Assembly: GCF_009646115.1 (NCBI RefSeq)
Contig: NZ_CP045720.1
Location: forward strand, 1-64,000
DNA from: Pantoea eucalypti
GTDB lineage: Bacteria; Pseudomonadota; Gammaproteobacteria; Enterobacterales; Enterobacteriaceae
Reading direction: 5' to 3'
DNA length: 64,000 nucleotides
Made by a program: the position numbers and the translations under genes
Part shown: piece by piece, positions 1 to 22,569 of the stretch
How the letters are laid out: the number at the start of each line of letters is the position of its first letter
Numbering within the stretch: position 1 is the first letter of the stretch
Notes under the pieces: model-generated
Told to the model about the DNA's origin: nothing
Databases searched by the model: none
Seen by the model: only the letters and a program-made list of their open reading frames with translations

Positions 1-1416
1 GTGTCACTTACGCTTTGGCAACAGTGTCTTGCCCGTTTGCAGGATGAGCTTCCTGCCACCGAATTCAGCATGTGGATCCGTCCACTCCAGGCTGAGTTAA
101 ACGACAATACGCTTGCCTTGTATGCTCCAAATCGCTTCGTACTCGACTGGGTTCGGGACAAATACCTTAATAGCATCAACGCACTGCTAAATGAATTTTG
201 TGGTCCAAACGTGCCTGCACTGCGTTTTGAAGTAGGTACGCGCCCGGTTCAGCAGCAAGCGGCAGCGGTCAGCCAGCCCGTCATGGCCAGCGTCAGCGCG
301 CCCGTGATGCCCGTACAGAGCCATATTCGTCCGGCCCCGGCGCAGATCATGCGTCCCAGCTGGGATAATGTCCCGGCTCCGGCCGACGTCACTTACCGCT
401 CGAATGTGAATAACCGTCATAACTTCGATAACTTCGTTGAAGGTAAATCCAACCAGCTGGCGCGCGCGGCGGCACGTCAGGTGGCGGATAATCCAGGCGG
501 CGCTTATAACCCACTTTTTCTGTATGGCGGCACGGGTCTCGGTAAAACGCACCTGTTGCATGCGGTGGGCAACGGCATTATTGCCCGCAAACCCAATGCA
601 AAAGTGGTTTACATGCACTCCGAGCGTTTTGTACAGGATATGGTTAAAGCGCTGCAGAACAATGCAATTGAAGAGTTCAAACGCTACTACCGTTCTGTGG
701 ATGCGCTATTGATCGATGACATTCAGTTCTTTGCGAATAAAGAGCGCTCACAGGAAGAGTTCTTCCATACCTTTAATGCCTTATTAGAAGGCAATCAGCA
801 GATCATCCTCACCTCGGATCGCTATCCCAAAGAGATTAACGGTGTAGAGGATCGTCTTAAATCGCGCTTCGGCTGGGGTTTAACGGTGGCGATCGAGCCG
901 CCTGAGCTGGAAACGCGTGTGGCGATCCTGATGAAAAAAGCGGATGAGAACGACATCCGTCTGCCGGGTGAAGTTGCCTTCTTTATTGCCAAGCGTTTGC
1001 GCTCTAACGTGCGTGAACTGGAAGGTGCACTGAACCGCGTCATCGCCAATGCTAACTTTACCGGTCGGGCGATCACCATCGACTTCGTGCGTGAAGCGCT
1101 GCGCGATCTGCTGGCGCTGCAGGAAAAGCTGGTCACCATCGATAATATTCAGAAGACCGTGGCTGAGTACTACAAGATTAAGGTGGCAGATCTGCTTTCC
1201 AAACGCCGTTCGCGCTCGGTAGCGCGTCCGCGCCAGATGGCGATGGCGATGGCGAAAGAGTTGACGAACCACAGCTTGCCAGAAATTGGCGACGCTTTTG
1301 GGGGTCGCGACCACACAACGGTGCTTCATGCCTGCCGCAAGATTGAGCAGCTGCGTGAAGAGAGCCACGATATCAAAGAAGATTTCTCTAATCTCATCAG
1401 AACATTATCTTCCTGA
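1..1416 (+). CDS. dnaA: Chromosomal replication initiator DnaA
   Basis: DnaA binds DnaA boxes at oriC, melts the origin and helps load DnaB helicase. The 471-residue product has the N-terminal DnaB-interaction domain, a variable linker at about residues 85-130, an AAA+ core with Walker A GGTGLGKT (about 176-183) and Walker [10 protein letters not shown], and the C-terminal DNA-binding domain with the signature GGRDHTT (about 433-439). The start is GTG at base 1, as commonly seen in enterobacterial dnaA, so the gene is complete but its promoter and DnaA boxes lie outside the window. dnaN follows after 4 bases, giving the usual dnaA-dnaN-recF-gyrB order. Identification is secure. Confidence 0.98.
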
Positions 1417-1420
1417 CGCT

Positions 1421-2521
1421 ATGAAATTTATTGTTGAACGTGAGCAGCTGCTGAAGCCGCTGCAACAAGTTAGTGGCCCACTGGGTGGTCGTCCGACGCT
1501 GCCGATTCTCGGAAACCTGCTGCTGCAGGTTACAGAAGGTTCGCTGCTGCTGACCGGTACCGATCTGGAAATGGAGATGGTCGCACGTGTGGCGCTGACG
1601 CAGGCGCATGAGCCTGGCTCCACCACCGTTCCGGCGCGAAAATTTTTGGATATCTGTCGCGGATTGCCGGATGGTGCAGAAATCACGCTGGCGCTGGAAG
1701 GCGATCGTATGCTGGTTCGCTCTGGCCGCAGCCGTTTTTCGCTGTCGACCCTGCCCGCCAGTGACTTCCCGAATCTCGACGACTGGCAGAGTGAAGTTGA
1801 ATTCACCCTGCCGCAGGCGACCCTGAAACGGCTGATCGAAGCGACTCAGTTCTCGATGGCCCATCAGGATGTGCGTTACTACCTCAACGGCATGATGTTT
1901 GAAACCGAAGGGGAAGAGCTGCGCACTGTAGCCACTGATGGTCACCGTCTGGCCGTTTGCTCCATGCCGATTGGCCAGGCACTGCCGAGTCATTCCGTGA
2001 TTGTGCCACGTAAAGGCGTCATTGAGCTGCTGCGTCTGCTGGATGGCGGCGATACGCCTCTGCAGGTCCGGATTGGCGGCAGCAATATCCGCGCGCACGT
2101 CGGCGACTATATCTTTACCTCTAAGCTGGTTGATGGTCGCTTCCCTGACTATCGCCGCGTATTGCCGAAGAATCCCGATAAAGTGCTGGAAGCGGGCTGC
2201 GATCTGCTCAAACAGGCCTTTGCCCGTGCTGCCATCCTTTCTAACGAGAAGTTCCGCGGTGTTCGCCTCTATATCACCGAAAATCAGCTAAAAATTACCG
2301 CCAATAACCCTGAACAGGAAGAAGCGGAAGAGATGCTGGATGTCAGCTATAACGGCACGGAACTGGAGATCGGTTTTAACGTCAGTTACGTGCTGGATGT
2401 GCTGAACGCGCTGAAGTGCGAAAACGTCCGCCTGCTGCTGACGGATTCAGTGTCGAGCGTGCAGATCGAAGATGTGGCGAGTCCTGCAGCAGCTTACGTC
2501 GTCATGCCCATGCGCTTGTAG
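1421..2521 (+). CDS. dnaN: DNA polymerase III beta subunit (sliding clamp)
   Basis: This encodes the ring-shaped processivity clamp that tethers polymerase III and other repair enzymes to DNA. The product is 366 residues, the normal length, beginning MKFIVEREQLLKPLQ and ending in the typical VMPMRL tail, which forms part of the protein-binding pocket. The ATG at 1421 lies 4 bases after the dnaA stop; an upstream in-frame extension into dnaA exists but is not credible because homologues begin at MKFIVE. In E. coli recF follows almost immediately; here a 176-base spacer holding a large palindrome separates them. Confidence 0.98.
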   Translation: MKFIVEREQLLKPLQQVSGPLGGRPTLPILGNLLLQVTEGSLLLTGTDLEMEMVARVALTQAHEPGSTTVPARKFLDICRGLPDGAEITLALEGDRMLVRSGRSRFSLSTLPASDFPNLDDWQSEVEFTLPQATLKRLIEATQFSMAHQDVRYYLNGMMFETEGEELRTVATDGHRLAVCSMPIGQALPSHSVIVPRKGVIELLRLLDGGDTPLQVRIGGSNIRAHVGDYIFTSKLVDGRFPDYRRVLPKNPDKVLEAGCDLLKQAFARAAILSNEKFRGVRLYITENQLKITANNPEQEEAEEMLDVSYNGTELEIGFNVSYVLDVLNALKCENVRLLLTDSVSSVQIEDVASPAAAYVVMPMRL

Positions 2522-2547
2522 GTGTGATATATCGGCCTGGCTTACTT

Positions 2548-2632
2548 GCTATGTTGTGCCCCGGCAGTGCTCGCCATCCTCACGTACTTCAGTACGCTCC
2601 GGTGGCTGTGCGCTGGCGAGGCGCAACGTAGC
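2548..2632. repeat. ~85 bp imperfect palindrome between dnaN and recF
   Basis: The left arm (about 2548-2587) and right arm (about 2592-2632) are imperfect reverse complements around a 4-base TTCA loop; the innermost stem is CGTAC/GTACG. Aligning the arms by eye gives most positions paired over about 40 bases. It has no coding potential that continues dnaN or recF. It looks like an inserted repetitive palindromic element of the kind scattered in enterobacterial intergenic regions. A transcript would form a long hairpin with no U-tract, so it is more likely a processing or attenuation structure than a simple terminator. Confidence 0.75.
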
Positions 2633-2697
2633 GGCGACGCCGACGACCTTGATCGCCAGGTCCAAAAACTTTATTGCCCTTCACGCTGGATTGATTC

Positions 2698-3783
2698 ATG
2701 GCTTTAACCCGCCTTCTTATCAAAGATTTTCGTAATATCGAGCAGGCCGACCTGCAACTGGCCCCCGGATTTAATTTCCTGGTGGGTGCCAATGGCAGTG
2801 GGAAAACCAGCGTTTTAGAGGCGATTCATACGCTGGGGCATGGTCGATCGTTTCGCAGTTTGCAGGCGGGTCGCGTCATTCGTCACGACGAGGCGGCGTT
2901 CGTGTTGCACGGGCGTCTGGAAAACGCAGAGCGGGAAATTTCTGTCGGGCTGACCAAAAACCGGGCCGGTGACAGCAAAGTGCGTATTGATGGCAGCGAT
3001 GGTCATAAAGTCGCAGAGCTGGCGCAGCTGCTGCCGATGCAGTTAATCACGCCTGAAGGTTTTAGTCTGCTGAATGGCGGTCCCAAATACCGCCGGGCCT
3101 ATGTCGACTGGGGCTGTTTCCATAACACGCCCGGCTTTTTCAACGCATGGAACAACATGCGTCGCCTGCTTAAACAGCGGAATGCGGCGCTTCGCCAGGT
3201 CTCACGTTACAGCCAGATTCGTCCCTGGGATCAGGAGCTGGTTCCGCTGGCTGAACAGATTAGCCAGTGGCGGGCGGAATACAGTGCGGCAATATCTGCA
3301 GAGATCACCGCCACCTGTAGCCAGTTTCTGCCAGAGTTTGAACTGCGCTTCTCCTTCCAGCGTGGCTGGGACAAAGAGAGTGATTACGGCGAACTGCTGG
3401 AACGTAACTTCGAGCGCGATCGTGCGCTGACTTATACCGCCAGCGGCCCCCATAAAGCCGATTTTCGTATTCGGGCTGAAGGGACGCCGGTGGAAGATTT
3501 ACTCTCACGCGGGCAGTTAAAACTGCTGATGTGTGCATTGCGTCTGGCACAGGGCGAGTTCCTGACAAGCCAGAGCGGACGCCGCTGTATTTACCTCATT
3601 GATGACTTTGCTTCTGAGCTGGATGAGAGCCGACGACGCCTGCTGGCGGACCGGTTAAAAGCCACTCAGGCGCAGGTGTTTGTCAGCGCTATTTCTGCCG
3701 GGCATGTAATCGACATGACTGACGAAAAGGGCAAGATGTTCCGCGTGGAACAGGGTAAAATAGCGGTTCAACCTGAAGATTAA
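2698..3783 (+). CDS. recF: DNA replication and repair protein RecF
   Basis: RecF is an SMC-like ATPase that acts with RecO and RecR to load RecA at single-strand gaps. The 361-residue product has Walker A GANGSGKT (residues 30-37) near the N terminus, the ABC-type signature [10 protein letters not shown] in the C-terminal third, and Walker [13 protein letters not shown]. Length and start ([15 protein letters not shown]) match the family. It follows dnaN after a palindrome-containing spacer and precedes gyrB by 18 bases, so gyrB may be read from the same transcript. The link to dnaN expression is less direct than in E. coli because of the spacer. Confidence 0.98.
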
Positions 3784-6210
<2,427 letters not shown>

Positions 6211-6224
6211 CCGGCAGCGGACGT

Positions 6225-6258
6225 AAAAGGCCATCACTCAGGTGATGGCCTTTTTTTT
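6225..6258 (+). terminator. Rho-independent terminator of gyrB
   Basis: A 9-bp GC-rich stem GGCCATCAC/GTGATGGCC around a TCAG loop is followed by eight T residues and preceded by four A residues, so the stem can extend by A-T pairs. It lies 14 bases after the gyrB stop and ends the dnaA-dnaN-recF-gyrB transcription unit. Confidence 0.93.
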
Positions 6259-6468
6259 GTACCGTACGGGCGGAAATCCATCAGGCCGCACCCCTGCTGT
6301 TCGCCAGGCGAACCCGCAACTATCCGAAAAGCCGTGATTTAAATCCACCGCGATCTCCTTATCGCCTGCACCCAGCGGTTTGCTGCCCGTTCCTGCCTGC
6401 CATGAAGCTGGTCAATGTGCGCTGAATCGCGCTAGCATTGAATAAAACCCAGACGCTACGAGGATTGT

Positions 6469-7278
6469 ATGGCTATTAAATTGATCGCTATCGACATGGA
6501 TGGCACCCTGCTCAACCCGCAACATGAGATCACACCAGGGGTGAAATCTGCCCTGGATCGCGCCCGCCAGAAAGGTGTGTCGATTGTGCTGACCACCGGC
6601 CGGCCATTTGTGGGTATCCAGCGCTATCTGATGGAGCTGGATATGCAGACGCCCGGCCAGTATGCGATAAGCAACAACGGTGCGCTGGTTCATCAGGCCG
6701 AAGATGGTGAGTGCGTGGCGGAAGTGACGCTGACCTTTGACGACTACCTCTACATCGAGAATCTGGCACGTGAGCTTGGCGTGCATTTCCAGGCGTTCGA
6801 CAAATCCCATCTCTACACACCCAATAAAGACATCAGTGAATACACCATCCATGAAGCGAGCCTGACCGGCATTCCGGTGCGCTATCGCGCCGTGGAAGAG
6901 ATGGATCGCGCCATGCGCTTCCCGAAACTGATGATGATTGACCGCCCGGACCTGCTCGACGCGGCGATTGCCCGTCTGCCCGAACATGCTCACCAGACTT
7001 ATACCATCCTGAAGAGCGCGCCTTACTACCTGGAAATTCTCGATTGTCGGGTGAATAAAGGCCAGGGCGTCAAAATGCTGGCTGACAAGCTCGGTCTTAA
7101 GCAGGAAGAGGTGATGGCGATTGGCGACCAGGAGAATGACCTGGCGATGATTGAATACGCCGGAACCGGCGTCGCAATGGGTAATGCCATTGATTCTGTT
7201 AAGAAAATCGCGCAGTTTATCACCAAAACCAATATGGAAGATGGTGTGGCGCATGCCATTGAAGAGTTAGTGCTTTAA
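6469..7278 (+). CDS. yidA: HAD-superfamily sugar phosphatase YidA
   Basis: This is a Cof-type haloacid dehalogenase phosphatase that hydrolyses small sugar phosphates. The 269-residue product has all HAD motifs: I DMDGTLL (catalytic Asp9 and Asp11), II TTGRP, III a lysine in NKGQGVKML, and IV GDQENDLAMIEYAG. E. coli YidA is 270 residues and lies in the same place near gyrB. The start has a clear Shine-Dalgarno GAGGA. The 210 bases between the gyrB terminator and yidA hold no gene; the yidB gene found there in E. coli is missing. Just downstream is the galactonate operon. Confidence 0.95.
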   Translation: MAIKLIAIDMDGTLLNPQHEITPGVKSALDRARQKGVSIVLTTGRPFVGIQRYLMELDMQTPGQYAISNNGALVHQAEDGECVAEVTLTFDDYLYIENLARELGVHFQAFDKSHLYTPNKDISEYTIHEASLTGIPVRYRAVEEMDRAMRFPKLMMIDRPDLLDAAIARLPEHAHQTYTILKSAPYYLEILDCRVNKGQGVKMLADKLGLKQEEVMAIGDQENDLAMIEYAGTGVAMGNAIDSVKKIAQFITKTNMEDGVAHAIEELVL

Positions 7279-7289
7279 TTGCCTTTCCC

Positions 7290-7318
7290 GGATGGCGTCC
7301 TGCCATCCGCCTTTCCCA
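7290..7318 (+). terminator. Probable weak terminator after yidA
   Basis: An 8-bp stem CGGATGGC/GCCATCCG with a 4-base loop begins 12 bases after the yidA stop. The downstream tract CCTTTCCCATT is only modestly T-rich, so termination may be incomplete or Rho-assisted. Confidence 0.5.
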
Positions 7319-7370
7319 TTGATTTAACGCCACCCACCTGCAAGGGCGGATTGTTGTTTTTGTGATCTTG

Positions 7371-7404
7371 ATTGTAGTACAAGATTAATATCAAGTACTA
7401 CAAT
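7371..7404 (+). promoter_or_regulatory. DgoR-type operator upstream of the dgo operon
   Basis: Two perfect 10-bp inverted copies, ATTGTAGTAC (7371-7380) and GTACTACAAT (7395-7404), are separated by 14 bases. Each copy is also part of a near-palindrome TTGTAGTACAA. The E. coli galactonate repressor DgoR, as I recall it, binds inverted TTGTAGTACA-like repeats at its own promoter, so this is very probably the DgoR operator. It lies 87 bases upstream of dgoR, where it would block transcription of the whole operon until galactonate is present. Confidence 0.85.
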
Positions 7405-7490
7405 ATGTGCAGAGGTTAAGACAATCTGTAGGCCTGAAAAGCGGAAGGCAGTAATCTGATAGCTCATGCTTTCTCACTGAATGGATCATC

Positions 7491-8189
7491 ATGACGCAAC
7501 AGCACATCAGCAAAACGGAGCGTATCATCCTGACGCTGGGCGAGGAGATTGTCGCCGGCCACTTTGCGCCAGGCGCCGCACTTCCGGCGGAATCCGACCT
7601 CTGCGATCGCTTCTCTACTTCACGCAATATCATTCGCGAAGTCTTTCGGGCGCTAATGGCAAAAAGGCTGATTGAGGTGAAACGCTACCGGGGGGCATTC
7701 GTCACCGCCCGCAACCAGTGGAATTATCTCGACAGTGACGTGCTGCAATGGGCGCTGTCGCACGATCAGGATCCGCGTCTGATCGCTGCGATGAATGAAG
7801 TCCGTGTGCTGGTTGAACCGCAAATTGCCCGCTGGTCAGCCGAGCGCGCCACCTCCAACGATCTGGCGGCCATCGAACAGGCTTATAACGACATGGTGAC
7901 ACATCATGCCGATCGCGAACTGTTTAACGAGGCGGATATCCGCTATCACGAAGCGGTGCTGGCATCGGTGCACAACCCGGTGCTTCAGCAGCTTAACGTC
8001 GCGATCAGTCAGCTGCAAAAAGCGGTCTTCTCCCGCACCTATATGCCGGATCAGGAGAACATGCCGCGTACGCTGGCCGAGCATAAAGCATTATTTGACG
8101 CGATTCGCCATCAGAATGCTGATGCCGCCGGAGAGGCAGCGAAAGCGATGATCGCCAGTTCAACCGCACGACTCAAGGAGATTTTGTGA
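7491..8189 (+). CDS. dgoR: GntR/FadR-family repressor of D-galactonate genes
   Basis: DgoR represses the galactonate operon and is released by D-galactonate. The 232-residue protein has an N-terminal winged helix-turn-helix (PAESDLCDRFSTSRNIIREVFRALMAK, split here as PAESDLCDRFSTSRN then IIREVFRAL) and a C-terminal all-helical FCD effector domain, whose metal-binding histidines are suggested by RYHEAV and EHKALFDAI. It is first in the operon, directly downstream of a paired operator, which implies autoregulation. dgoK begins inside its stop codon, consistent with translational coupling. Confidence 0.93.
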   Translation: MTQQHISKTERIILTLGEEIVAGHFAPGAALPAESDLCDRFSTSRNIIREVFRALMAKRLIEVKRYRGAFVTARNQWNYLDSDVLQWALSHDQDPRLIAAMNEVRVLVEPQIARWSAERATSNDLAAIEQAYNDMVTHHADRELFNEADIRYHEAVLASVHNPVLQQLNVAISQLQKAVFSRTYMPDQENMPRTLAEHKALFDAIRHQNADAAGEAAKAMIASSTARLKEIL

Positions 8190-9067
8190 GCAGCTATATC
8201 GCCATCGACTGGGGATCCACCAACCTGCGTGCCTGGCACTACGATAAGGGTGAATGTGTCGACCAGCGTCGGTCTGAAGCGGGGGTGACGCGTCTGGCCG
8301 GACGTACTGCGGCTGAGGTATTTGACGATGTCACCGCTGGCTGGCCCGTTGACCGCGTACCGGTAATCATGGCGGGCATGGTGGGAAGTAACGCGGGCTG
8401 GCAACCGGTGCCCTATCTTGGCTGTCCGATGGCGCTGGACCAGCTTGCCAGCCACCTCACACACGTCGCGGATAAAGCGTGGATCGTGCCGGGACTGAGC
8501 ATCGAACGAGACGACAACGATAACGTTATGCGCGGCGAAGAGACACAGCTGTTAGGTGCCACCACGCTGCACGCAGCATCGCTTTATGTCATGCCGGGCA
8601 CCCATGCAAAATGGGTCGATGTTGAGGGATTGGAGGTGCGCGATTTCCGAACCGTGATGACCGGCGAACTGCATCATCTGCTGCTGAATCATTCTCTGAT
8701 TGGAGCCGGCCTGCCGGAGCAGCAGGAGAACAACGTGGCGTTTCAGGAAGGTATTGAACGCGGTGCTCAGGATGCTTCGATCCTGTCGCGCCTATTTGAA
8801 GTGCGCGCGGCCCATGTTCTGGGCACACGCGATCGCCGCCACGTTAGCGAGTTTCTCTCCGGACTCCTGATTGGACATGAGGTTGCGCTGATGACGAAAC
8901 AGAGCACAACATACACCCGTCAGCCCCTTGTTATCATTGCCGGTGATGCACTGGCCTGTCGATATCAGCAGGCGTTGCAGTTTATCGGTCTGGAATCTGT
9001 CACCCTGGAGGGCGATCGAGCCTTTCAGCATGGAATAAGGAGTATCGCCAATGTCCTGGCAAACTAA
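8186..9067 (+). CDS. dgoK: 2-dehydro-3-deoxygalactonokinase
   Basis: DgoK phosphorylates 2-keto-3-deoxygalactonate to the 6-phosphate in the De Ley-Doudoroff route for D-galactonate. The 293-residue product (E. coli 292) begins with the actin-like phosphate loop IAIDWGSTNLRAW and has MPGTHAKWVDV and IIAGDALACRY motifs of this kinase family. The start is GTG at 8186, overlapping the dgoR stop by 4 bases, with the Shine-Dalgarno AAGGAG at 8175-8180. Its 3' end overlaps dgoA by 17 bases, so it is embedded in a tightly coupled operon. Confidence 0.95.
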   Translation: MSSYIAIDWGSTNLRAWHYDKGECVDQRRSEAGVTRLAGRTAAEVFDDVTAGWPVDRVPVIMAGMVGSNAGWQPVPYLGCPMALDQLASHLTHVADKAWIVPGLSIERDDNDNVMRGEETQLLGATTLHAASLYVMPGTHAKWVDVEGLEVRDFRTVMTGELHHLLLNHSLIGAGLPEQQENNVAFQEGIERGAQDASILSRLFEVRAAHVLGTRDRRHVSEFLSGLLIGHEVALMTKQSTTYTRQPLVIIAGDALACRYQQALQFIGLESVTLEGDRAFQHGIRSIANVLAN

Positions 9068-15206: not shown

Positions 15207-16118
15207 TTACGGCTGCGTTCTCATCGCTAAACGCTGACCCAGCACGCCACCAAACACATTGACCAGCAACCCCAGAATAATCACTGCCGCGCCCAGCATC
15301 TGCTGCCCGGAGAGATGCTCATCCAGCACCAGTGCAGCGGTAACAATCCCCACGACCGGCACCAGCAGCGACAGCGGCGCGACGCGCCAGGTTTCATAGC
15401 GACTTAGCAGATTCCCCCAGATGGCATAGCCCACAATGGTGGCGACAAACGCCAGATAGAACAGCGCCAGCACGGTCTGCAGGCCGATATGCAGCAGGCT
15501 GTTAACGATGGCGGCCTCGCCATCAAACAGCAGAGAGCAGGCAAAGAAGGGAATGACCGGTACCAGTGCACTCCAGACCACCAGCGACATGATCGGCACA
15601 CTGCGGTTCCGCATAATGATCTTATTAGTGATATTGCCCAGCCCCCATGACAGCGCCGCCGAGAGTGTCAGCATCATGGTGGTCAGCGTAATACCGGCGC
15701 TGGTCTGCCCTTCCATGCCTGCTGTTGCCAGCATAAACATCCCCAGCGTGGCGATGATAATCCCGACAATATGATTCCAGCGCAGCTTTTCCGCCAGCAG
15801 CAGCGCGCCCAGCAACAGGGTAAAGAAGGCCTGCGCCTGCAGCACCAGCGAGGCCAGACCGGCTGGCATACCAAGTTTGATCGCCAGGAACAGAAACGCG
15901 AACTGACCAAAACTGATGGTCATGCCGTAAACGACCAGCCAGCGCAGCGGGATCGGCGGGCGACGCACAAAGAAAATGGCGGGAAAGGCGACCAGAGAGA
16001 AACGCAGTCCGGCGAGCAAAAAGGGCGGCATGCCCTGCAGCCCCAGCTTAATCACCACAAAATTCACGCCCCACGCCACCACCACGCACAGCGCTAACAG
16101 CATATCTTTTACCGACAT
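15207..16118 (-). CDS. eamA: EamA-family amino-acid metabolite exporter
   Basis: This 303-residue protein has ten predicted membrane segments in two EamA (DMT superfamily) repeats. It is close to E. coli EamA (YdeD), the exporter of cysteine and O-acetylserine: shared stretches include WGVNFVVIKLGL, FGQFAFLFLAIKLGMPAGLA, LVLQAQAFFT and GRYETWRVAPLSLLVPVVG (here SRYETWRVAPLSLLVPVVG). It starts 21 bases downstream of the tRNA-deacylase gene and is the last gene of the minus-strand operon that begins at 20942. The position suggests that it may export the operon's product, though simple adjacency is possible. Confidence 0.87.
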   Translation of the reverse strand: MSVKDMLLALCVVVAWGVNFVVIKLGLQGMPPFLLAGLRFSLVAFPAIFFVRRPPIPLRWLVVYGMTISFGQFAFLFLAIKLGMPAGLASLVLQAQAFFTLLLGALLLAEKLRWNHIVGIIIATLGMFMLATAGMEGQTSAGITLTTMMLTLSAALSWGLGNITNKIIMRNRSVPIMSLVVWSALVPVIPFFACSLLFDGEAAIVNSLLHIGLQTVLALFYLAFVATIVGYAIWGNLLSRYETWRVAPLSLLVPVVGIVTAALVLDEHLSGQQMLGAAVIILGLLVNVFGGVLGQRLAMRTQP

Positions 16119-16139
16119 CAGAAACTCCTTGTGCCGCCG

Positions 16140-16640
16140 TCAGGCGGTGACCGCAATCGGGGTGGCGATATCAGCACAACACGCGTCCCCCACGATGCGA
16201 AAATAATCCTCTGCAGCCAGCGCGATCGACTTCTCCAGTTCGCCCGCGTTAAACCATAATGTGCCGACCTGTTGCAGCCGGGAATCCACCCGCAGCGCCA
16301 GCCGGTCATCAAAACTAAATGGCGGCACAGCGCCCATGACACAGTCGGTCAGTGCCTGTGCCAGCTCGGGCGCGGCGAAAGAGGATTTTTTGCCACCGAT
16401 CGCGCGCGCCGCATTTTTAAAATTGATCCGGCAGTCGCCCGGCACAATGGCCAGCAGCTGTCGCGAGGGCGCACCATCCGGCATGCTCACCTCCAGCACC
16501 ATCGCTTTGGCCGCCTGACCCAGTGCGTTGCCGCGTATCTGGCTGATCTGCTCGGTTTGCCCTACCGCCTCATGCTCCACCACACGGTAGCTGGCCTGAT
16601 GCTGATCCAGCAGCGCAGTAATCTTTTCAAACGTCGTCAT
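16140..16640 (-). CDS. YbaK/YeaK-family aminoacyl-tRNA deacylase
   Basis: This 166-residue protein belongs to the prolyl-tRNA-synthetase INS-like editing family, free-standing enzymes that hydrolyse wrongly charged aminoacyl-tRNAs. The conserved lysine is Lys45 in GQAAKAMVLEV, followed by the family motifs ARAIGGKKSSFA and GAVPPFSF. By eye it resembles E. coli YeaK more than YbaK. The start at 16640 (MTTFEKIT) has a GAAAAGGAGAAGGGA region just upstream. It lies 42 bases after the 2OG-oxygenase gene and 21 bases before eamA, apparently in the same operon. A self-protection role against misincorporation of an amino-acid product is an inference. Confidence 0.85.
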   Translation of the reverse strand: MTTFEKITALLDQHQASYRVVEHEAVGQTEQISQIRGNALGQAAKAMVLEVSMPDGAPSRQLLAIVPGDCRINFKNAARAIGGKKSSFAAPELAQALTDCVMGAVPPFSFDDRLALRVDSRLQQVGTLWFNAGELEKSIALAAEDYFRIVGDACCADIATPIAVTA

Positions 16641-16682
16641 TCCCTTCTCCTTTTCTGGCACAACTTAATGGCACAACCTGGC

Positions 16683-17483
16683 TTAGCTCCAGGCGATAGC
16701 ATGTTTCATCTTTTTATCGGTCAGCCCGAAAAAGAACCCCATCGTGATACGGGTATCGCCTTCGACCCGATCAATCTCATGATAAAAAGCGGGATTAAAC
16801 AGATAGACATCGCCACTGCGCGGTGAAAATTCGCAGATCTCGCTGTGATCAATGACCCCACTGCGATAGCCCAGCTCACCGGCGGTTTTGAACTGCTCAT
16901 CCTCCGGCGACCACTTTTTGTTGTAGATGCGCAGCGCACCACCCGCGCTGCACTCCTGCAGGCAGACCACGCAGCTGAGCTGATGCAATATTTGTGTCAC
17001 AACCAGGGAGGTTCCTGCAGCATCGCGCACGATATTGTCGTTATGTAGCGGGTTCGCGACGCCATCAGCATGAAAGCGCACGATAGAACCGGCGTAGTCA
17101 CCACAACCCGGTTCGTGGGCGATGTTTAAGCTCTCCAGCCGCAGCGCGTGCTGCACCCAGCGGTAAATCTGTTCGCGCAGTGTGTTGAGTGATGCCGGCA
17201 GCGCCGGCTGGATATCGCGCAGCTCAGTGAAATAGTTATCAGGTGCCGCCGTATGGCGTGCCAGATAGGGACCCAGCGTGGTCAGCGCGCCATTGGGATA
17301 GTGAGAGACACGGATCTTTTCCCGGCAGCTCTGCAGGTCAGTCACCACCGCTTGCCGCACGTCTGGCGTCAGAAAGTTACGCAGCACCAGTAGCGGCACC
17401 CGTGCAGTGACGATGTCATCCAGCCAGGTCGATTCCACAAACATGTTGGGATTAATCACGCGGAACTGATTGAAAATTGCCAT
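16683..17483 (-). CDS. 2OG-Fe(II) dioxygenase of a putative biosynthetic operon
   Basis: This 266-residue protein has the iron triad of 2-oxoglutarate-dependent oxygenases: HND at residues 147-149, distal His235 in FNPAFYHEIDRV, and Arg245 in GDTRITMGFFFG to bind 2-oxoglutarate. Such enzymes hydroxylate, desaturate or cyclise amino acids and peptides. The substrate is not evident. The ATG at 17483 is chosen because AGGGAG lies 8 bases upstream; a GTG at 17492 overlaps the preceding stop. It directly follows the amidotransferase gene, so it is co-translated or co-transcribed with it. Confidence 0.82.
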   Translation of the reverse strand: MAIFNQFRVINPNMFVESTWLDDIVTARVPLLVLRNFLTPDVRQAVVTDLQSCREKIRVSHYPNGALTTLGPYLARHTAAPDNYFTELRDIQPALPASLNTLREQIYRWVQHALRLESLNIAHEPGCGDYAGSIVRFHADGVANPLHNDNIVRDAAGTSLVVTQILHQLSCVVCLQECSAGGALRIYNKKWSPEDEQFKTAGELGYRSGVIDHSEICEFSPRSGDVYLFNPAFYHEIDRVEGDTRITMGFFFGLTDKKMKHAIAWS

Positions 17484-17488
17484 GTTTA

Positions 17489-18196
17489 TCACTCCCTAAA
17501 CGGTATTTCATAGAGTTCATGATTATTCATTCGCCGCCAGCTGCCGGCGCTGCCTGGTATTGTCACGGGTTCAGAGGCGATCAGCGTGCAACCGTCCTGT
17601 TGCCGAAAATGCATCGTAAAATAGTCCGGCCAGGGGGTGTCGTGCGGATACCACTGCCACGCCCAGGCTTTGTCGCGGGTGACGAAAATGGCATTGCCTG
17701 CGCTGCCGCCTGGCTCAACCTGCGCCATCTTTGCGCGCAGATAGTCCCGGGTGAAATCAGCAGGGGTGGTCTGATCCACTAAATAGCGCAGATACTCTTC
17801 AGAATCGAAGCGTGATTCCGCCAGGCCGAGCTGACGGTAAATGGTCGGCAGAAAGCCGTTATGCATCATGTACCACTGATGTCCGGCGCTGTTGCGCCAC
17901 AGCGGATGCGAAAACTCGATCCCCTGATTTTTGCTCAATGTGGCGTGACGCACATGAACCGCCAGAAACCGACTGCGCAGACGATCCACGTCAATACCCG
18001 GCAGGGCGTCTGCGAACGGGCCGGTGCCATGCAGGGTGTGAATCTCGCCCTGTTCCAGCCACAGACAGCCCCAGCCATTGGGATGCGATTTGATCGGGCC
18101 ATCGTGTTCGGCGCCTTCGCCGCAGCTCATGGCGCGTGCTGCCTCCAGAATCTGTGCGCTGTCAAACTGGCCATATGCCAGAATCATCCTGCACAT
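17489..18196 (-). CDS. Class II glutamine amidotransferase
   Basis: This 235-residue stand-alone Ntn-type glutaminase starts MCRMILAYG, so Cys2 becomes the N-terminal nucleophile after Met removal. The glutamine-site elements HVRHATLSKNQG, MHNGFL and DSEEYLRYL match the glutamine pocket of class II amidotransferases. It would release ammonia from glutamine but has no synthetase domain of its own. The next two upstream genes encode a PP-loop ATPase and an ATP-grasp enzyme, either of which could accept the ammonia. Its start overlaps the ATP-grasp gene by 13 bases, which indicates tight coupling. Confidence 0.85.
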   Translation of the reverse strand: MCRMILAYGQFDSAQILEAARAMSCGEGAEHDGPIKSHPNGWGCLWLEQGEIHTLHGTGPFADALPGIDVDRLRSRFLAVHVRHATLSKNQGIEFSHPLWRNSAGHQWYMMHNGFLPTIYRQLGLAESRFDSEEYLRYLVDQTTPADFTRDYLRAKMAQVEPGGSAGNAIFVTRDKAWAWQWYPHDTPWPDYFTMHFRQQDGCTLIASEPVTIPGSAGSWRRMNNHELYEIPFRE

Positions 18197-19458
18197 ACTT
18201 TGTCTCTCCCGGCGGTGACTGATTGCGCGGCAATCACCTGCTTAAACGTGGTCATGATTGGCTCACGTGCTGTATCTGTCAGACTGAAGGTGGCGAGGAT
18301 ACCCGCATGACGGGTCAGATCGGCATAGAGCGAGGAGCGTGGCGAAACCTGCAGTGCAGGCAATCTGAGGGGTGGCAACAGCGCACCCTGCTGATGCTGT
18401 TCGATCCAGCTTTCGGCAGCCTGCAGCTGCGCCGGTTGCCGTAACCGCAGCTGTCCAACCGCACCGGATCCGGTGAAAGCAAAAGCAGGCAGTGGATCGC
18501 CCGCCTCCAGCCGGAAGGTGACATCCGCCCAGTTGATGCCCGTTGCCTCCTGCACCAGTATTGCCACCCCCATGCCGGAAAGCCGGAATCCCATCTCAAG
18601 GAAATGCGGTACGCCATTAACCACAATAAAATCGATATGAAACGCGCCCTGACGATAGCCAAAGGTTTCACAACAGAAGGTCATCAGGCTACTGAACGAT
18701 GCCGGCAAGGCCGCTGCCGCCATTGCTACATGCCCCGACTCATAAAAACTGACGCATCCCTGGCTATCCCGGTGCTGCTCAATCACCTTCTGGCAGCAGG
18801 TCAGTGCCTGGGGATGCCCCTGATGCACCACACCCTGCAACGAAAACTCAGTGCCTGTCAGCGCACTTTCCACAATAAAGCCGCTGAAGCCGCGACCGCC
18901 ATAGTTCATGGTCTGCACCAGCTGTTTCACCACACTGCGCAGTTGATCGGCGCGTTCAATCAGAAAGATGCCCAGGCCGCCGCCGCCATCCACTGGTTTC
19001 ACGACACACGGATAGATCAGCGCCTGTTCCGCATCCAGAATGCTGAGCGGTGACGCGAAAAAGCGGAACTCTGGCTGCGGGAAGCGCGGCCAGGCTTTTT
19101 TCAGCGCCATGCGCTGCGCATATTTATCCATGGGAATAAAGGCGGCAGGCGCGTCTGGCCCGGCCAGCATCTCACGCAGCCGTCCGGCGCTGGCGTTGTA
19201 AGCTTCAAAGCCTGCCAGCACCACCAGCGGATGCGCCAGTAAACCGGCATGCAGATAAGCCTGCATGAGCTCCCACGGATTCTCAGGACGGTCGAGGCGA
19301 ATAATCAGATCAAACGGCAACGCCAGACTGAGCGACTGGTAATCGACAAAATCACCCATTTCCGCCAGCACGGTAAAATAGCCGTCGCGCTTCGCCACCG
19401 CGCAATAAGGATTTTGTCCGTCGCGGGTGGCGCCAATTTGCAGGAAAATCTTTTTCAT
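18184..19458 (-). CDS. ATP-grasp ligase of a putative biosynthetic operon
   Basis: This 424-residue protein has an ATP-grasp fold: Lys154 in VVKPVDGGGGLGIF, HIDF (His274, Asp276), and the metal-binding strand FLEMGFRLSG with Glu288 and Arg292. These enzymes join a carboxylate to an amine through an acyl-phosphate, often forming dipeptides or amino-acid amides. The N-terminal 110 residues and the last ~90 residues are not recognised. It lies 17 bases after the PP-loop gene and overlaps the amidotransferase gene by 13 bases. No substrate can be assigned from the sequence. Confidence 0.82.
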   Translation of the reverse strand: MKKIFLQIGATRDGQNPYCAVAKRDGYFTVLAEMGDFVDYQSLSLALPFDLIIRLDRPENPWELMQAYLHAGLLAHPLVVLAGFEAYNASAGRLREMLAGPDAPAAFIPMDKYAQRMALKKAWPRFPQPEFRFFASPLSILDAEQALIYPCVVKPVDGGGGLGIFLIERADQLRSVVKQLVQTMNYGGRGFSGFIVESALTGTEFSLQGVVHQGHPQALTCCQKVIEQHRDSQGCVSFYESGHVAMAAAALPASFSSLMTFCCETFGYRQGAFHIDFIVVNGVPHFLEMGFRLSGMGVAILVQEATGINWADVTFRLEAGDPLPAFAFTGSGAVGQLRLRQPAQLQAAESWIEQHQQGALLPPLRLPALQVSPRSSLYADLTRHAGILATFSLTDTAREPIMTTFKQVIAAQSVTAGRDKVCAG

Positions 19459-19475
19459 CGCCTCGCCTTACCGGG

Positions 19476-20942
19476 TTAACGCCCGGAAATGATTTCTGTC
19501 ACGATGTCATTGAGCACACCGTTATTGACCTGAATCACCGCTTTGTGAGGATCAAAACGCAGGACGCGCGACAGCGGATCGGTACTTTTGCCCTCCAGCA
19601 GCGAACTGACCGGCCTGCTCTGCCAGCAGTGGCGCATCTGCGTCAGCGTCAGGCCGGAGAGCTGTGTTAACTGCTGAGCCAGTTCGACGTCGTTATTGCG
19701 TTGTTCAATCAGATCGCGAATAGCGGCTTCCTCCAGCGCAATCTGCTGCTGCGACAGCCAGTGTCCCAGCTGCTCTCCGTGCGCCAGGAAGGGTGAGTAA
19801 ATCATGCAGATCAGCTGATCTTCACTGAGGTTAAACGCCTGCATGGCGAAATCTGCCGCGCGCTGCCGCTGCTGCCGGATGGCGTCGTCGTCCTGATAGC
19901 GCGCCGCCATCTCATTAATGAGCGCGGACGGAAAATCTTTCTTCACCATCAGCCCCAGCGCGAAGCGCACATACTCGCGGATCCCTTCGGCATAGTGGCG
20001 CTGCAGCAGCGTTTCAGCCCGCAGTCCGCGCAGATGCGCCATCAGCGTTGGATTACCGCAGTCGGACTCGGAAAAGCTGAACATCAGTTCATCAAAACGG
20101 AAGCGCATAAATTCGCTGAGCAGCGCCCAGTGCGCGCCCGCTTCATAGGCGGTGTCCTGATAAATGTTGAAAAACAGCGGGTCACGTGCGAGCTGATGGG
20201 TGATGCGGTGCGCGGCTGTCAGCTGTTCGGCCCCGTAAACGTCAGAGAAGTAGCGCTCTGCCACACCGTCCAGCGTCTGGAGAAATCCGCTGAAGCCCCG
20301 GCTTTTGTCCGCTACCGGCGCATCAAACAGCCGGGAAAGGTGTCTCGCCCAGGCGACATAGGCGGCCTGCTCCTGCGGCGAGTCGCCGGTGATAATCAGA
20401 TCCACGCCGCCGTTGTAGTCTGCCGCCAGACCAAAGGAGTTCACCATGCTGAGATTACAGGCGTTGCAGAAGGTCGAGCGCGCATCAGCGCGAAAACGGT
20501 GGCCATTCATCAGCACGTCATTGCGGTTCTGCTGCCGTACGCTCTCAGGAATCGTCAGGTCGCGGGCAAACGGTCGGATCAGCAGGCCATCTACCACCAG
20601 GCATTCTGTCCGTTCATCGTCATGCATCGCCAGCGCCTGATAAACGCGGTGGATGTTCTCCATCACGCTCTGATTCATCGCCGCATGACGGTTAGTACTG
20701 ACCCGCAGATGAAACGTGCTGCCCTGCTGCAGCCAGATCAGCCCCTGAAGGTAACGCACGTAAGCCACCATGTAGCTACTGTCTTTTCCGCCGCCATAGG
20801 CTAGCAGAACGCGGTTATTTTCCAGCATCTGCTGATCCGGCAACGCCGCCAGCAGGCGAACAGAGCAGCGCTGAGCCGATTCAATGATGGCGGGCGACAG
20901 ATACGCTTCAATCTCCTTCATCATGGCGGGCAGATTGTTCAT
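19476..20942 (-). CDS. PP-loop ATPase with CxxC, first gene of a putative biosynthetic operon
   Basis: This 488-residue protein has a PP-loop in LLAYGGGKDSSYMVAYVRYL (here YGGGKDSS, residues 49-56), which binds ATP for adenylation of a carbonyl or amide oxygen. A CxxC pair (Cys159, Cys162 in TFCNACN) precedes LIITGDSPQEQ, the position of the TGHxxD motif in tRNA-thiolating and sugar-amidating PP-loop enzymes. The C-terminal ~220 residues are helical and unrecognised. It begins the minus-strand operon and is divergent from the MocR-type regulator 166 bases away. It may pair with the separate class II glutaminase as a split amidotransferase; this is an inference. Confidence 0.8.
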   Translation of the reverse strand: MNNLPAMMKEIEAYLSPAIIESAQRCSVRLLAALPDQQMLENNRVLLAYGGGKDSSYMVAYVRYLQGLIWLQQGSTFHLRVSTNRHAAMNQSVMENIHRVYQALAMHDDERTECLVVDGLLIRPFARDLTIPESVRQQNRNDVLMNGHRFRADARSTFCNACNLSMVNSFGLAADYNGGVDLIITGDSPQEQAAYVAWARHLSRLFDAPVADKSRGFSGFLQTLDGVAERYFSDVYGAEQLTAAHRITHQLARDPLFFNIYQDTAYEAGAHWALLSEFMRFRFDELMFSFSESDCGNPTLMAHLRGLRAETLLQRHYAEGIREYVRFALGLMVKKDFPSALINEMAARYQDDDAIRQQRQRAADFAMQAFNLSEDQLICMIYSPFLAHGEQLGHWLSQQQIALEEAAIRDLIEQRNNDVELAQQLTQLSGLTLTQMRHCWQSRPVSSLLEGKSTDPLSRVLRFDPHKAVIQVNNGVLNDIVTEIISGR

Positions 20943-21108
20943 TTTTCACGTTTCCCTCAGTTGAACAGTATCACTTTATGGCCTGAAGCCGGCGGCTGAC
21001 GGGGCGTCGGGCCGTTTAGCGTCATGAATAATTAAGAGATGCAGCCTAAACTACTTTGAATGTACTCTGTTGAATATGCACAGATCAGCGCGATATGGGG
21101 TGGAACAG
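20943..21108. promoter_or_regulatory. Divergent promoter region of the operon and MocR regulator
   Basis: This 166-base region separates the PP-loop gene (minus) from the regulator (plus). At about 21050-21074 there is a direct repeat-like pair, TACTTTGAATG then TACTCTGTTGAA, on the regulator side. MocR regulators often bind direct repeats in such divergent promoters. I see no strong consensus promoter hexamers, so the exact sites are not assigned. Confidence 0.45.
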
Positions 21109-22569
21109 ATGGCCGATATTATCGGGGAACAGGAGAGTCAGAACAGTCGTTACCGCCAGATCGCAGAACAGATTAAGCAGGCCATTCACGGCGGTTCACT
21201 GGCACCCGACAGCCGTCTGCCGTCGGTGCGGACGCTGGCAACACAGTACAATGTCAGCCTCACCACCGCCCTGAAAACACTGCGCACGCTGGAAGATGAG
21301 CGCTACGCCGTTGCCCGTCCAAAATCGGGCTTTTTTGTTGCCTCGCAGCGGCCTGCCTCGCAGCGGCTGCCCGCCGTCAGCGAACAGCCGCGCGCCATCG
21401 CGCCGCTGGATGAGCAGACAGAACTGCATCTGGCGATGCTCGGCTCAGACTGCCGGGTGCGTCTCGATCTGGCTAACGGCGACAGCGCCCTTTATCCGGT
21501 CAAGCGCATCGGCCTGCTGATGCGCCAGATGGGCTACAGCAAACCGGCGCTGCTCGGCAATACGGTCAAAGGTACCGGCTATGCGCCGCTGAAAACTGAG
21601 ATTGCCCGACGCGCGGTCGATTACGGCTGCAATATCAGCGCCGACGACATTCTGATCACCAACGGCTGCATAGAGGCGATTTCGCTGTCCCTGCGCGCCA
21701 CCACCCAGCCGGGCGATGTGGTGGCAGTAGAGTCACCCTGCTATTTCGTGCTGCTGCAGATGCTGCATAACCTCAATTTACGGGTGATTGAAGTGGAAGC
21801 CGGGCCGGAAGGGTATGTGAATGTGGCGAAGCTGACCGGATTATTTCAGCGCAAGGCGGTACGGGTTTTTCTCACCCTGTGCAACGTCAATAATCCGCTG
21901 GGCAAGAGCATTCCTAACGAGCATAAAGCCTATATTGCGCGGCAGGCGGATGAAAACGATGTGGTGATCATTGAGGATGATATTTTTGGCGATACCGCCT
22001 TTGGTGAGCGTCGCCCCTTCCCGATGCGCGCCTTCAGCCCCAACGCCATTCTCTGCAGCGGCTTTTCCAAAACCGTGGCACCGGGCATTCGCATTGGCTG
22101 GGTTCACAGCGTCAATTACATGCGCAAAATCGCCTCGCTGAAATATACCTCGACGATGGGCACCTCGGTGTTGTCACAGGCGGCGGTGGCGGAGTTGCTG
22201 CGCAGCGGGGGCTATGATGCGCATCTGCGCAAGCTGCGTCGCGAGCTGGCGCGGCAAATCCGTGAGATGCGTCAGTCGGTGCTGCGGGAATTTCCGGCGG
22301 GAACACGCGTGTCCGATCCGGAAGGAGGCTATGTGCTGTGGGTCGAGATGCCGGGAAAGGCGCTGAACGTGCGTGAGCTGTTTCTGAAAGCGCGTAATGC
22401 GGGCATCGGCATTGCGCCGGGCCACATTTTTGCCACCGACCAGCGCTACGATCACTGTTTCCGGCTGAATGCCGGTTTCGGCTGGAATGCTGAGGTGGAA
22501 CAGGCCATTAAACAGCTGGCACAGTGGTGCCAGCTGTCGTTAACCGATCCACAGGAAGAGCAGGATTAG
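21109..22569 (+). CDS. MocR/GabR-type PLP-dependent transcriptional regulator
   Basis: The 486-residue protein joins an N-terminal GntR winged helix (IAEQIKQAI, LPSVRTLATQYNVSLTTALKTL without a break beyond this) to a fold-type I aminotransferase domain. The PLP lysine is in CSGFSKTVAPGIRIGW, and TNGCIEAISL and CNVNNPLGK also fit. Such regulators sense amino-acid or PLP-derived ligands. I chose the ATG at 21109 because GGGGTGGA lies just upstream; starts at 21070 or 21076 lack a ribosome site. It is divergent from the six-gene operon and likely controls it. Its 3' end overlaps convergent avtA by 4 bases. Confidence 0.9.
   Translation: MADIIGEQESQNSRYRQIAEQIKQAIHGGSLAPDSRLPSVRTLATQYNVSLTTALKTLRTLEDERYAVARPKSGFFVASQRPASQRLPAVSEQPRAIAPLDEQTELHLAMLGSDCRVRLDLANGDSALYPVKRIGLLMRQMGYSKPALLGNTVKGTGYAPLKTEIARRAVDYGCNISADDILITNGCIEAISLSLRATTQPGDVVAVESPCYFVLLQMLHNLNLRVIEVEAGPEGYVNVAKLTGLFQRKAVRVFLTLCNVNNPLGKSIPNEHKAYIARQADENDVVIIEDDIFGDTAFGERRPFPMRAFSPNAILCSGFSKTVAPGIRIGWVHSVNYMRKIASLKYTSTMGTSVLSQAAVAELLRSGGYDAHLRKLRRELARQIREMRQSVLREFPAGTRVSDPEGGYVLWVEMPGKALNVRELFLKARNAGIGIAPGHIFATDQRYDHCFRLNAGFGWNAEVEQAIKQLAQWCQLSLTDPQEEQD

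Follow-up and report, generated by a model that had tools for sequence, protein, structure and literature searches.

What does a compact operon of tailoring enzymes make when an exporter, a transfer RNA (tRNA) deacylase and a regulator stand beside them? The question is raised by the first 64,000 nucleotides of contig NZ_CP045720.1 of Pantoea eucalypti (assembly GCF_009646115.1; hereafter the window), where the stretch between ibpA and avtA holds six genes on the minus strand (15207-20942) and, divergent from them, a MocR regulator gene (21109-22569). The seven-gene unit is real, selected and near-core in the genus. The best explanation, to which we give an even chance, is that the operon makes, exports and self-protects against a small, threonine- or serine-like amino acid that is non-proteinogenic, a chemistry that we infer from the protein families. 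The unit comprises the following features.

15207-16118, minus strand: EamA-family exporter (Pfam EamA, 7.5e-30; NCBIfam PRK11453 below cut-off)
16140-16640, minus strand: YeaK/ProXp-ST1/FthB-type aminoacyl-tRNA deacylase (Pfam tRNA_edit, 1.2e-20; probable ATG start at 16640)
16683-17483, minus strand: Fe(II)/2-oxoglutarate (2OG) oxygenase of the WelO5/HilA kind, with HxD...H (Pfam WelO5, 2.5e-21; probable ATG start at 17483)
17489-18196, minus strand: stand-alone class II N-terminal nucleophile (Ntn) hydrolase or glutaminase with a Cys2 start and an EgtC-like fold, here called the GATase-like protein (Pfam GATase_4, 6.6e-9; Foldseek)
18184-19458, minus strand: ATP-grasp ligase of the L-amino-acid-ligase kind (Pfam ATP-grasp_4, 2.7e-12; PDB 3vot, 6.8e-13)
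19476-20942, minus strand: PP-loop protein, a candidate [4Fe-4S] sulfur insertase or amide-forming enzyme (PP-loop; invariant C159, C162, C295 and C379)
21052-21108, plus strand: conserved, probably non-coding MocR leader, a candidate promoter/operator (alignment of divergent intergenic regions)
21109-22569, plus strand: MocR regulator with a GntR DNA-binding part and an aminotransferase-like part that binds pyridoxal phosphate (PLP) (Pfam GntR, 2.7e-16; Aminotran_1_2, 9.6e-29)

A conserved seven-gene unit

Genome contigs were scanned with the PP-loop protein, a scan that reaches close relatives only, and 34 loci were recovered, 28 of them from Pantoea. The nearest relatives belong to this genus, with PP-loop proteins 96% identical in two loci (L009 and L039). 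All seven genes were present in the same order at 33 of the 34 loci, a gene being counted as present when a piece of at least 30% of the query length was found and shorter matches being dropped; the exception in gene content was a decayed locus (L040) without GATase and MocR. The flanking genes avtA and ibpA were also found at 33 of 34 loci. Hafnia psychrotolerans (L036) carries the seven genes in order with neither avtA nor ibpA in the 21 kb examined, and the seven genes are therefore the unit. Elsewhere, homologue extraction dropped matches below 90% of length; alignment A2 was made without L020, L039 and L040, and alignment A6 without L020, L028, L031, L032, L039, L040 and L042.

Among 61 genomes of the genus, the PP-loop protein was matched in 51 (47 with a single open frame of full length; in the other four, G1050, G1053, G1062 and G1065, the gene was in pieces only), the oxygenase in 51 and the GATase in 50. 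The same ten genomes, eight of them 3.9-5.3 Mb in size, were without all three; in G1050 (2.9 Mb) the GATase was also gone and the PP-loop and oxygenase copies were broken. The co-occurrence of the PP-loop protein and the oxygenase gave a Fisher p of 1e-11, uncorrected for kinship. As the original prediction had supposed, these genes form a conserved, co-occurring block across genomes. Analysis of the seven genes against three relatives revealed ratios of non-synonymous to synonymous substitution rates (dN/dS) of 0.027-0.112, and of 0.031-0.148 for the neighbours avtA and yidQ.

Wider searches returned few matches. The PP-loop protein was matched in 4 of 295 genomes at the family level (own genome included, two outside the genus), in 1 of 369 at the class level (own genome) and in 7 of 398 at the phylum level, where two were of the genus and five were a degenerate homolog from one other genus. 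The GATase profile matched 3 of 299 phylum genomes, strongly only in the own genome. No match to the PP-loop gene was detected in a phage collection (protein search) or in Escherichia coli genomes (DNA search), and the plasmid matches of the oxygenase (2 records) and the ligase (38 records, 25 among the matches listed) were all distant. A recent horizontal island was rejected on the G+C content of the unit (57.9% versus 55.1% for the window) and on the avtA and ibpA flanks.

Nine of the ten enzyme-less genomes were examined (G1064, of 1.4 Mb, was left out). EamA was kept between ibpA and avtA in all nine, with 77-86% identity. G1037 also retains a nearly full-length MocR, and G1045 retains, with EamA, broken deacylase pieces and pieces of the MocR 3' part; from this deletion scar it follows that the unit was once present in G1045 and was then deleted. 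Counted by locus (L171-L179), EamA stands in nine, MocR in one and a scar with deacylase and MocR pieces in one. Some Pantoea carry about 2-5 kb of extra DNA, between avtA and MocR (L042, about 3223-8366) or between EamA and ibpA (L027, L032).

The near-core distribution (51 of 61 genomes) argues against a strain-specific antibiotic. Papers are cited here by PubMed Central number. Twelve known antibiotic clusters of Pantoea are surveyed in PMC11350110. Among the rows listed, none is present in more than 1.86% of the 2,527 genomes of the genus; a G+C value is given for nine clusters, and in eight of them it is lower than that of the host. The unit is unlike them in being near-core and of ordinary G+C, a difference of distribution and description and not of sequence. 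The main text of that paper holds no occurrence of ATP-grasp, EamA, amidotransferase, ibpA or avtA. No paper describing the unit was recognised among the matches listed from full-text literature, as judged from titles and abstract starts in a collection that mostly leaves out subscription papers. In line with the earlier statement that no pathway with exactly this set was known, no described cluster with this gene set was found, the known Pantoea clusters being compared by description.

The deacylase and possible self-protection

The deacylase is 44.6% identical to an E. coli record annotated yeaK. In a 21-row tree with 10 cluster rows it fell on the side of YeaK and the FthB-like protein, and a split supported at 100/100 set these apart from two YbaK rows; one row, from Streptomyces BHT-5-2, contains a stop and was used unchanged. 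The gene had been called YeaK/YbaK type, of which the YeaK/FthB part stands and the YbaK part does not, and a YbaK-type Cys deacylase was rejected by this split. The nine other YeaK-like rows form their own set (97/99), which makes the cluster type a distinct branch. The genome has a separate YeaK ortholog (L003), which clusters with that of E. coli (100/98); the unit thus carries a deacylase copy of its own.

ProXp-ST1 and ProXp-ST2 enzymes hydrolyse Ser- and Thr-tRNAs, and the related FthB acts on fluorothreonyl-tRNA (PMC11295145). Fluorothreonine clusters conserve both fthB and fthC, FthB protecting against 4-fluorothreonine and FthC exporting it (PMC7408626). By family, the YeaK/FthB-type deacylase of the unit points to self-protection against a product resembling serine or threonine, a conclusion absent from the original prediction. 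We also examined the fth cluster of Streptomyces (Streptantibioticus) cattleya on pSCATT (L065), an unannotated record identified from its neighbour, a gene combining serine hydroxymethyltransferase (SHMT) and aldolase. An FthB-like gene is followed there by an EamA gene, as in the unit, and the deacylases are 37% identical; this pair in the same order provides a precedent for a threonine analogue. Unlike the unit, the fth cluster gave no blastp match (E 1e-3) to the other unit enzymes within the 12 kb examined, and fluorothreonine is built there by a transaldolase (PMC7162832).

Two plasmids hold deacylase-family genes in other settings. On a Thalassospira marina plasmid (L071), a YeaK-like gene stands in a row with genes for threo-3-hydroxy-L-aspartate ammonia-lyase and a symporter, threo-3-hydroxyaspartate being another hydroxy amino acid. 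On Rhizobium lusitanum plasmid p_4 (L073), a gene annotated as YbaK/EbsC family lies upstream of a type I polyketide synthase gene.

Ligase, oxygenase and GATase-like protein

The ATP-grasp protein is nearest to the L-amino acid ligase BL00235 (PDB 3vot). The closest solved proteins to the oxygenase are WelO5 and three entries named 'Oxidoreductase', and its residues H150-N151-D152 and H238 are invariant in 15 rows. Known halogenases of the WelO5/BesD kind lack the metal-binding Asp (HxG). Since the HxD...H triad is kept, a hydroxylase type is expected and a WelO5-like halogenase was rejected; going by these residues, the oxygenase should act as a hydroxylase.

In the GATase-like protein, C2, R83, T86, N113 and G114 are invariant in 17 rows. 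These pocket residues fall opposite the C, R, T, N and G of the window's own GlmS, in a comparison whose overall score is not significant (0.3%) and in which the pocket aspartate is not aligned. The glutamine-pocket features (Cys2, R..T and NG) are common to the EgtC type and true amidotransferases. A Foldseek search with the model (mean predicted local distance difference test, pLDDT, 74) returned EgtC as the five best PDB chains (4zfl, 4zfj and 4zfk; E 3.9e-10 to 9.5e-10). Judged by the model, this protein may be a gamma-glutamyl hydrolase and is probably not the ammonia source. The latter role, first assigned to it as a class II glutaminase, has become less likely with EgtC nearest by fold, PurF and GlmS being nearly as good.

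Two known pathways join a glutamyl ligase to an iron enzyme. In beta-ethynylserine (bes) synthesis of S. cattleya, a threonine analogue is reached through a gamma-glutamyl ligase of the ATP-grasp kind, whose glutamyl conjugate is then hydroxylated by a 2OG enzyme; the pathway also uses a halogenase, an oxidase and a PLP enzyme and is not known to involve a PP-loop enzyme. Its likeness to the unit lies in the ATP-grasp ligase and the 2OG oxygenase. In ergothioneine synthesis, EgtC takes off a glutamyl group after oxidation by a non-haem iron enzyme (PMC9103826), and the egtA/egtB/egtC set resembles the unit in its succession of glutamyl ligase, non-haem iron oxidation and amidohydrolase. The families of ligase and oxygenase differ between the two; the PP-loop protein, the deacylase and the exporter are additional in the unit, which has no methyltransferase or C-S lyase match in Pfam or NCBIfam. 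By analogy, which is not proof, the ligase, oxygenase and EgtC-like hydrolase of the unit would repeat the ergothioneine logic.

The PP-loop protein

The PP-loop protein matched no Pfam or NCBIfam model, and a search of the PDB by sequence gave nothing useful. Its motif, YGGGKDSS, is plain in the sequence; GGGKDS is invariant in 18 rows, with G and not the S of SGGxDS at the first position. Also invariant in 18 rows, including a 41% identical Methylobacter row, are C159, C162 and C295. Comparison with family profiles by hhalign gave 70.8% for TtcA, 11.6% for GuaA and 1.2% for AsnB (21, 31 and 7 rows). The AsnB profile was built from 6 of 30 loci found, and for TtcA loci L096 and L098, which contain internal stops, the stop-free pieces were used. 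With single E. coli proteins the scores were 62.8% for TtcA, 33.2% for GuaA, 9.1% for TilS, 5.4% for MnmA, 4.4% for QueC and 3.3% for ThiI.

The CxxC is followed by 23 residues and then G-D in the PP-loop protein; TtcA has 22 residues there before a G-H. At this position no CxxC was found in seven other E. coli PP-loop proteins, QueC having one near its C-terminus. The second and third cysteines are separated by 133 residues in the PP-loop protein, 127 in CtaC and 88 in TtcA, whose third cysteine (C213) is invariant in 21 rows. CtaC, of closthioamide synthesis, has predicted cluster ligands C154, C157 and C284, and it and TtcA/TtuA/Ncs6 share with the unit's protein a PP-loop, a CxxC and a third cysteine (PMC6772006). 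They differ in their substrates, which are carrier-bound for CtaC and tRNA for TtcA, and their sequence kinship to the PP-loop protein is weak; no carrier protein match was found in the unit with Pfam or NCBIfam. On these residues, we tentatively regard the PP-loop protein as a [4Fe-4S] sulfur inserter like TtcA and CtaC.

The AlphaFold model (pLDDT 77.6; predicted template modelling score, pTM, 0.79) had no PDB fold match at E <= 0.001 in Foldseek. The best match was human asparagine synthetase, and it was weak (E 0.021, probability 0.93, template modelling (TM)-score 0.22). The PP-loop protein had been described as an ATP-dependent activator; sulfur chemistry is at least as likely as amide synthesis on the TtcA profile and the CxxC...C pattern, and asparagine synthetase is still the best, weak, fold.

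A sister cluster in Methylobacter

The sole plasmid match of the PP-loop protein (38.8%) was in Methylobacter sp. YRD-M1 (NZ_CP091425.1; L008, 8378-15096). This cluster encodes an archaeal-type asparagine synthetase A (NF005054, 309.2 bits, cut-off 309; PDB 3p8t), together with EamA and a MocR-like protein whose only Pfam match is to the aminotransferase part. It also encodes a B12 protein resembling methylaspartate mutase S and a second protein resembling mutase E, each scoring below its NCBIfam cut-off. No GATase, 2OG, ATP-grasp or deacylase gene was detected by annotation or tblastn. PP-loop, EamA and MocR-like genes are what the Pantoea and Methylobacter clusters have in common. Glutamate mutase makes 3-methylaspartate. 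From this one locus, the gene content suggests a beta-substituted aspartate-like substrate and a deacylase that goes with hydroxylation. To our knowledge, a Methylobacter cluster with this PP-loop family is undescribed.

Exporter and regulator

The EamA protein scored 398.8 bits against the O-acetylserine/cysteine exporter model PRK11453 (NCBIfam), below the cut-off of 472. Because EamA persists without the enzymes, it is weaker evidence for a dedicated export step; the exporter may be kept as protection or may have a general, cysteine-type role of its own. Alignment of 13 of the 34 extracted divergent intergenic regions, from Pantoea to Hafnia, revealed conservation of 21052-21108. The longer MocR reading frame hits a stop in a relative (L018; alignment by eye). 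The segment is probably a non-coding leader and, from its conservation, a candidate promoter/operator.

Proposed pathway

The reactions, their order, the metal cluster and the product are proposals, which we build on the observed gene content, conservation, selection and family and fold assignments. The ATP-grasp ligase would couple an amino acid to a glutamyl (or another aminoacyl) group, and the 2OG oxygenase would hydroxylate the conjugate, probably at the beta carbon. The PP-loop enzyme would then use ATP to activate a carbonyl; should its CxxC...C bind a [4Fe-4S] cluster in the manner of TtcA and CtaC, it would also replace the oxygen with sulfur supplied by the host. After removal of the glutamyl group by the EgtC-like hydrolase, the EamA protein would export the product and the YeaK/FthB-type deacylase would clear tRNA mischarged with it; MocR would sense an amino compound via PLP and control the divergent promoters. 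Going by these families, the product possibly carries a hydroxyl group and sulfur, and given the rest of the model the sulfur step is roughly balanced between right and wrong. We consider a more specific version rather unlikely: that in a near-core Pantoea pathway a free-standing iron-sulfur PP-loop enzyme, working without a non-ribosomal peptide synthetase, a carrier protein or a ribosomally made peptide, thiolates a glutamyl-protected, beta-hydroxylated small amino acid; that the resulting threonine analogue, a thioamide or thioacid, is exported, with dedicated tRNA editing for self-protection; and that a Methylobacter plasmid carries a sister pathway in which this kind of PP-loop enzyme receives its beta-substituted substrate from glutamate mutase and an asparagine synthetase.

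Several observations weigh against the proposed threonine- or serine-like product and its pathway. A near-core distribution is unusual for an antimetabolite pathway, and the EamA gene is untied from the enzymes, being kept in all nine enzyme-less genomes examined; it also gave no blastp match to the pSCATT exporter at E 1e-3, the two having the Pfam family alone in common. The HMMER alignment sets H150 of the oxygenase two residues off the WelO5 halogenase His, and the HxD/HxG correspondence was drawn by eye. In the fold search with the GATase-like model, PurF (1.0e-9), 1te5 and GlmS (3.1e-9) trail EgtC by less than tenfold in E-value, and the TM-score on the query is higher for PurF (0.66-0.67 versus 0.57-0.62). 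As to sulfur insertion, NadE, LarE and NcsA (E 0.44) rank below asparagine synthetase as fold matches of the PP-loop model, mixed with unrelated folds. The TtcA profile score stems mainly from the PP-loop segment, and a forced full-length profile alignment with TtcA leaves the cysteines unsuperposed. NadE (1.2%) and AsnB (1.1%) score below the best of eight unrelated controls (Tig, 2.1%); with two true PP-loop proteins below a control, the scale is blunt and a low score says little. K53, C162 and C295 are replaced in all five degenerate homologs; these three are among 46 of the 157 invariant positions that none of the five retains, and their loss is therefore no more than suggestive. The operon contains no gene for a sulfur carrier or a desulfurase.

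Pantoea species are common plant associates with uses in biocontrol. If the proposal is true, most of them make an amino-acid metabolite that has gone unreported, and the unit holds no non-ribosomal peptide synthetase or polyketide synthase gene of the kind sought by cluster-finding programs. Genome mining would also gain a new handle in the PP-loop family, for which Pfam and NCBIfam have no model, and the deacylase would add to the cases of self-resistance by tRNA editing.

Alternative explanations

The alternative that survives best, which we nonetheless judge unlikely, is a split asparagine-synthetase-like amidotransferase, in which the glutaminase feeds ammonia to the PP-loop protein to form an amide or lactam and the oxygenase and ATP-grasp protein tailor it; this is how the original prediction read the operon. 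Asparagine synthetase and beta-lactam synthetase are fusions of a class II glutaminase and a PP-loop part, and the top fold match of the PP-loop model is the human asparagine synthetase. The GATase-like protein also keeps Cys2, R..T and NG, with PurF and GlmS close behind EgtC. However, AsnB was the weakest of the three profiles, in a blunt test with its seven rows; beta-lactam synthetase came at rank 49 and asparagine synthetase was not among the 50 GATase fold matches listed; and the 41% identical Methylobacter PP-loop homolog has no adjoining GATase. The accompanying analogy with clavam pathways found no specific support.

It is quite improbable that the unit makes a dipeptide antibiotic of the bacilysin/Hil kind, in which the oxygenase would modify a free amino acid and the ATP-grasp ligase, being nearest to BL00235, would make the final exported dipeptide. 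The Hil operon of Pantoea ananatis, which serves isoleucine dihydroxylation, is the nearest Pantoea system in kind, and its PF13640 2OG dioxygenase is accompanied in some bacteria by a PF13535 ligase and by exporters of the RhtA type (PMC3684760); the oxygenase of the unit matches the HilA model (NCBIfam) weakly, at 28.1 bits against a cut-off of 500. Unlike the unit, Hil includes HilB and HilC as well as a solute-binding protein and a regulator of the LysR type; PP-loop, EgtC-like and deacylase genes are absent from the figure legend of the same paper. Among the Pfam and NCBIfam matches of the unit, no family of the HilB or HilC type was found. A dipeptide product also leaves the EgtC-like hydrolase and the dedicated deacylase unexplained, the latter acting on a free amino acid after it has been loaded onto tRNA.

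Least probable is a housekeeping or detoxifying unit that degrades or repairs an amino acid, mis-made or from plants, under the protection of deacylase and exporter: near-core presence, strong purifying selection, an exporter kept where the enzymes are lost and ordinary G+C fit it, but ATP or oxygen is consumed by three of its enzymes (ligase, PP-loop enzyme and oxygenase), as is typical of building, and the unit is absent from ten genus genomes, eight of them 3.9-5.3 Mb in size, and scarce in the family and class. A defence system was rejected, as six of the seven proteins searched against PADLOC gave one weak 2OG match.

Gene layout and related loci

Pfam matched six of the seven proteins (EamA, tRNA_edit, WelO5/2OG, GATase_4, ATP-grasp, and GntR with aminotransferase), and these family assignments support the view that enzymes of the amino-acid-tailoring kind are joined by an exporter and a regulator. 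Open frames were listed at 15207-16118, 16140-16661, 16683-17492, 17489-18196, 18184-19458 and 19476-20942 on the minus strand and at 21070-22569 on the plus strand. The six minus-strand genes and their first-described gaps of 17, -13, 5, 42 and 21 bases were confirmed for ATG starts at 17483 (oxygenase) and 16640 (deacylase); mechanical GTG starts give 17, -13, -4, 21 and 21. The divergent PLP-dependent regulator does lie 166 bases away when MocR starts at ATG 21109.

The sole plasmid match of the GATase, a 41% identical homolog, was in Embleya sp. NBC_00888 (L057, 12001-12702), with no other unit genes nearby except a 59-residue match to the MocR DNA-binding part. Five loci (L049-L053), from five genomes of one genus, probably Pseudomonas, have a PP-loop homolog with a degenerate loop (HGGGEVSS in four and QSGSRDSC in one) adjoining a MocR gene; tblastn detected no other gene of the unit there. 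In the two whose frames were read (L049 and L053), alcohol dehydrogenase-like and phosphoglucomutase-like genes flank this homolog.

A dnaA-dnaN-recF-gyrB block occupies the start of the window (1-6210), and the operon lies about 9 kb from the end of gyrB; these names, like ibpA and avtA, are what we take the neighbours to be from their sequences. With the seven-gene unit (15207-22569) close to this block, the replication origin is probably near and gene dosage high.

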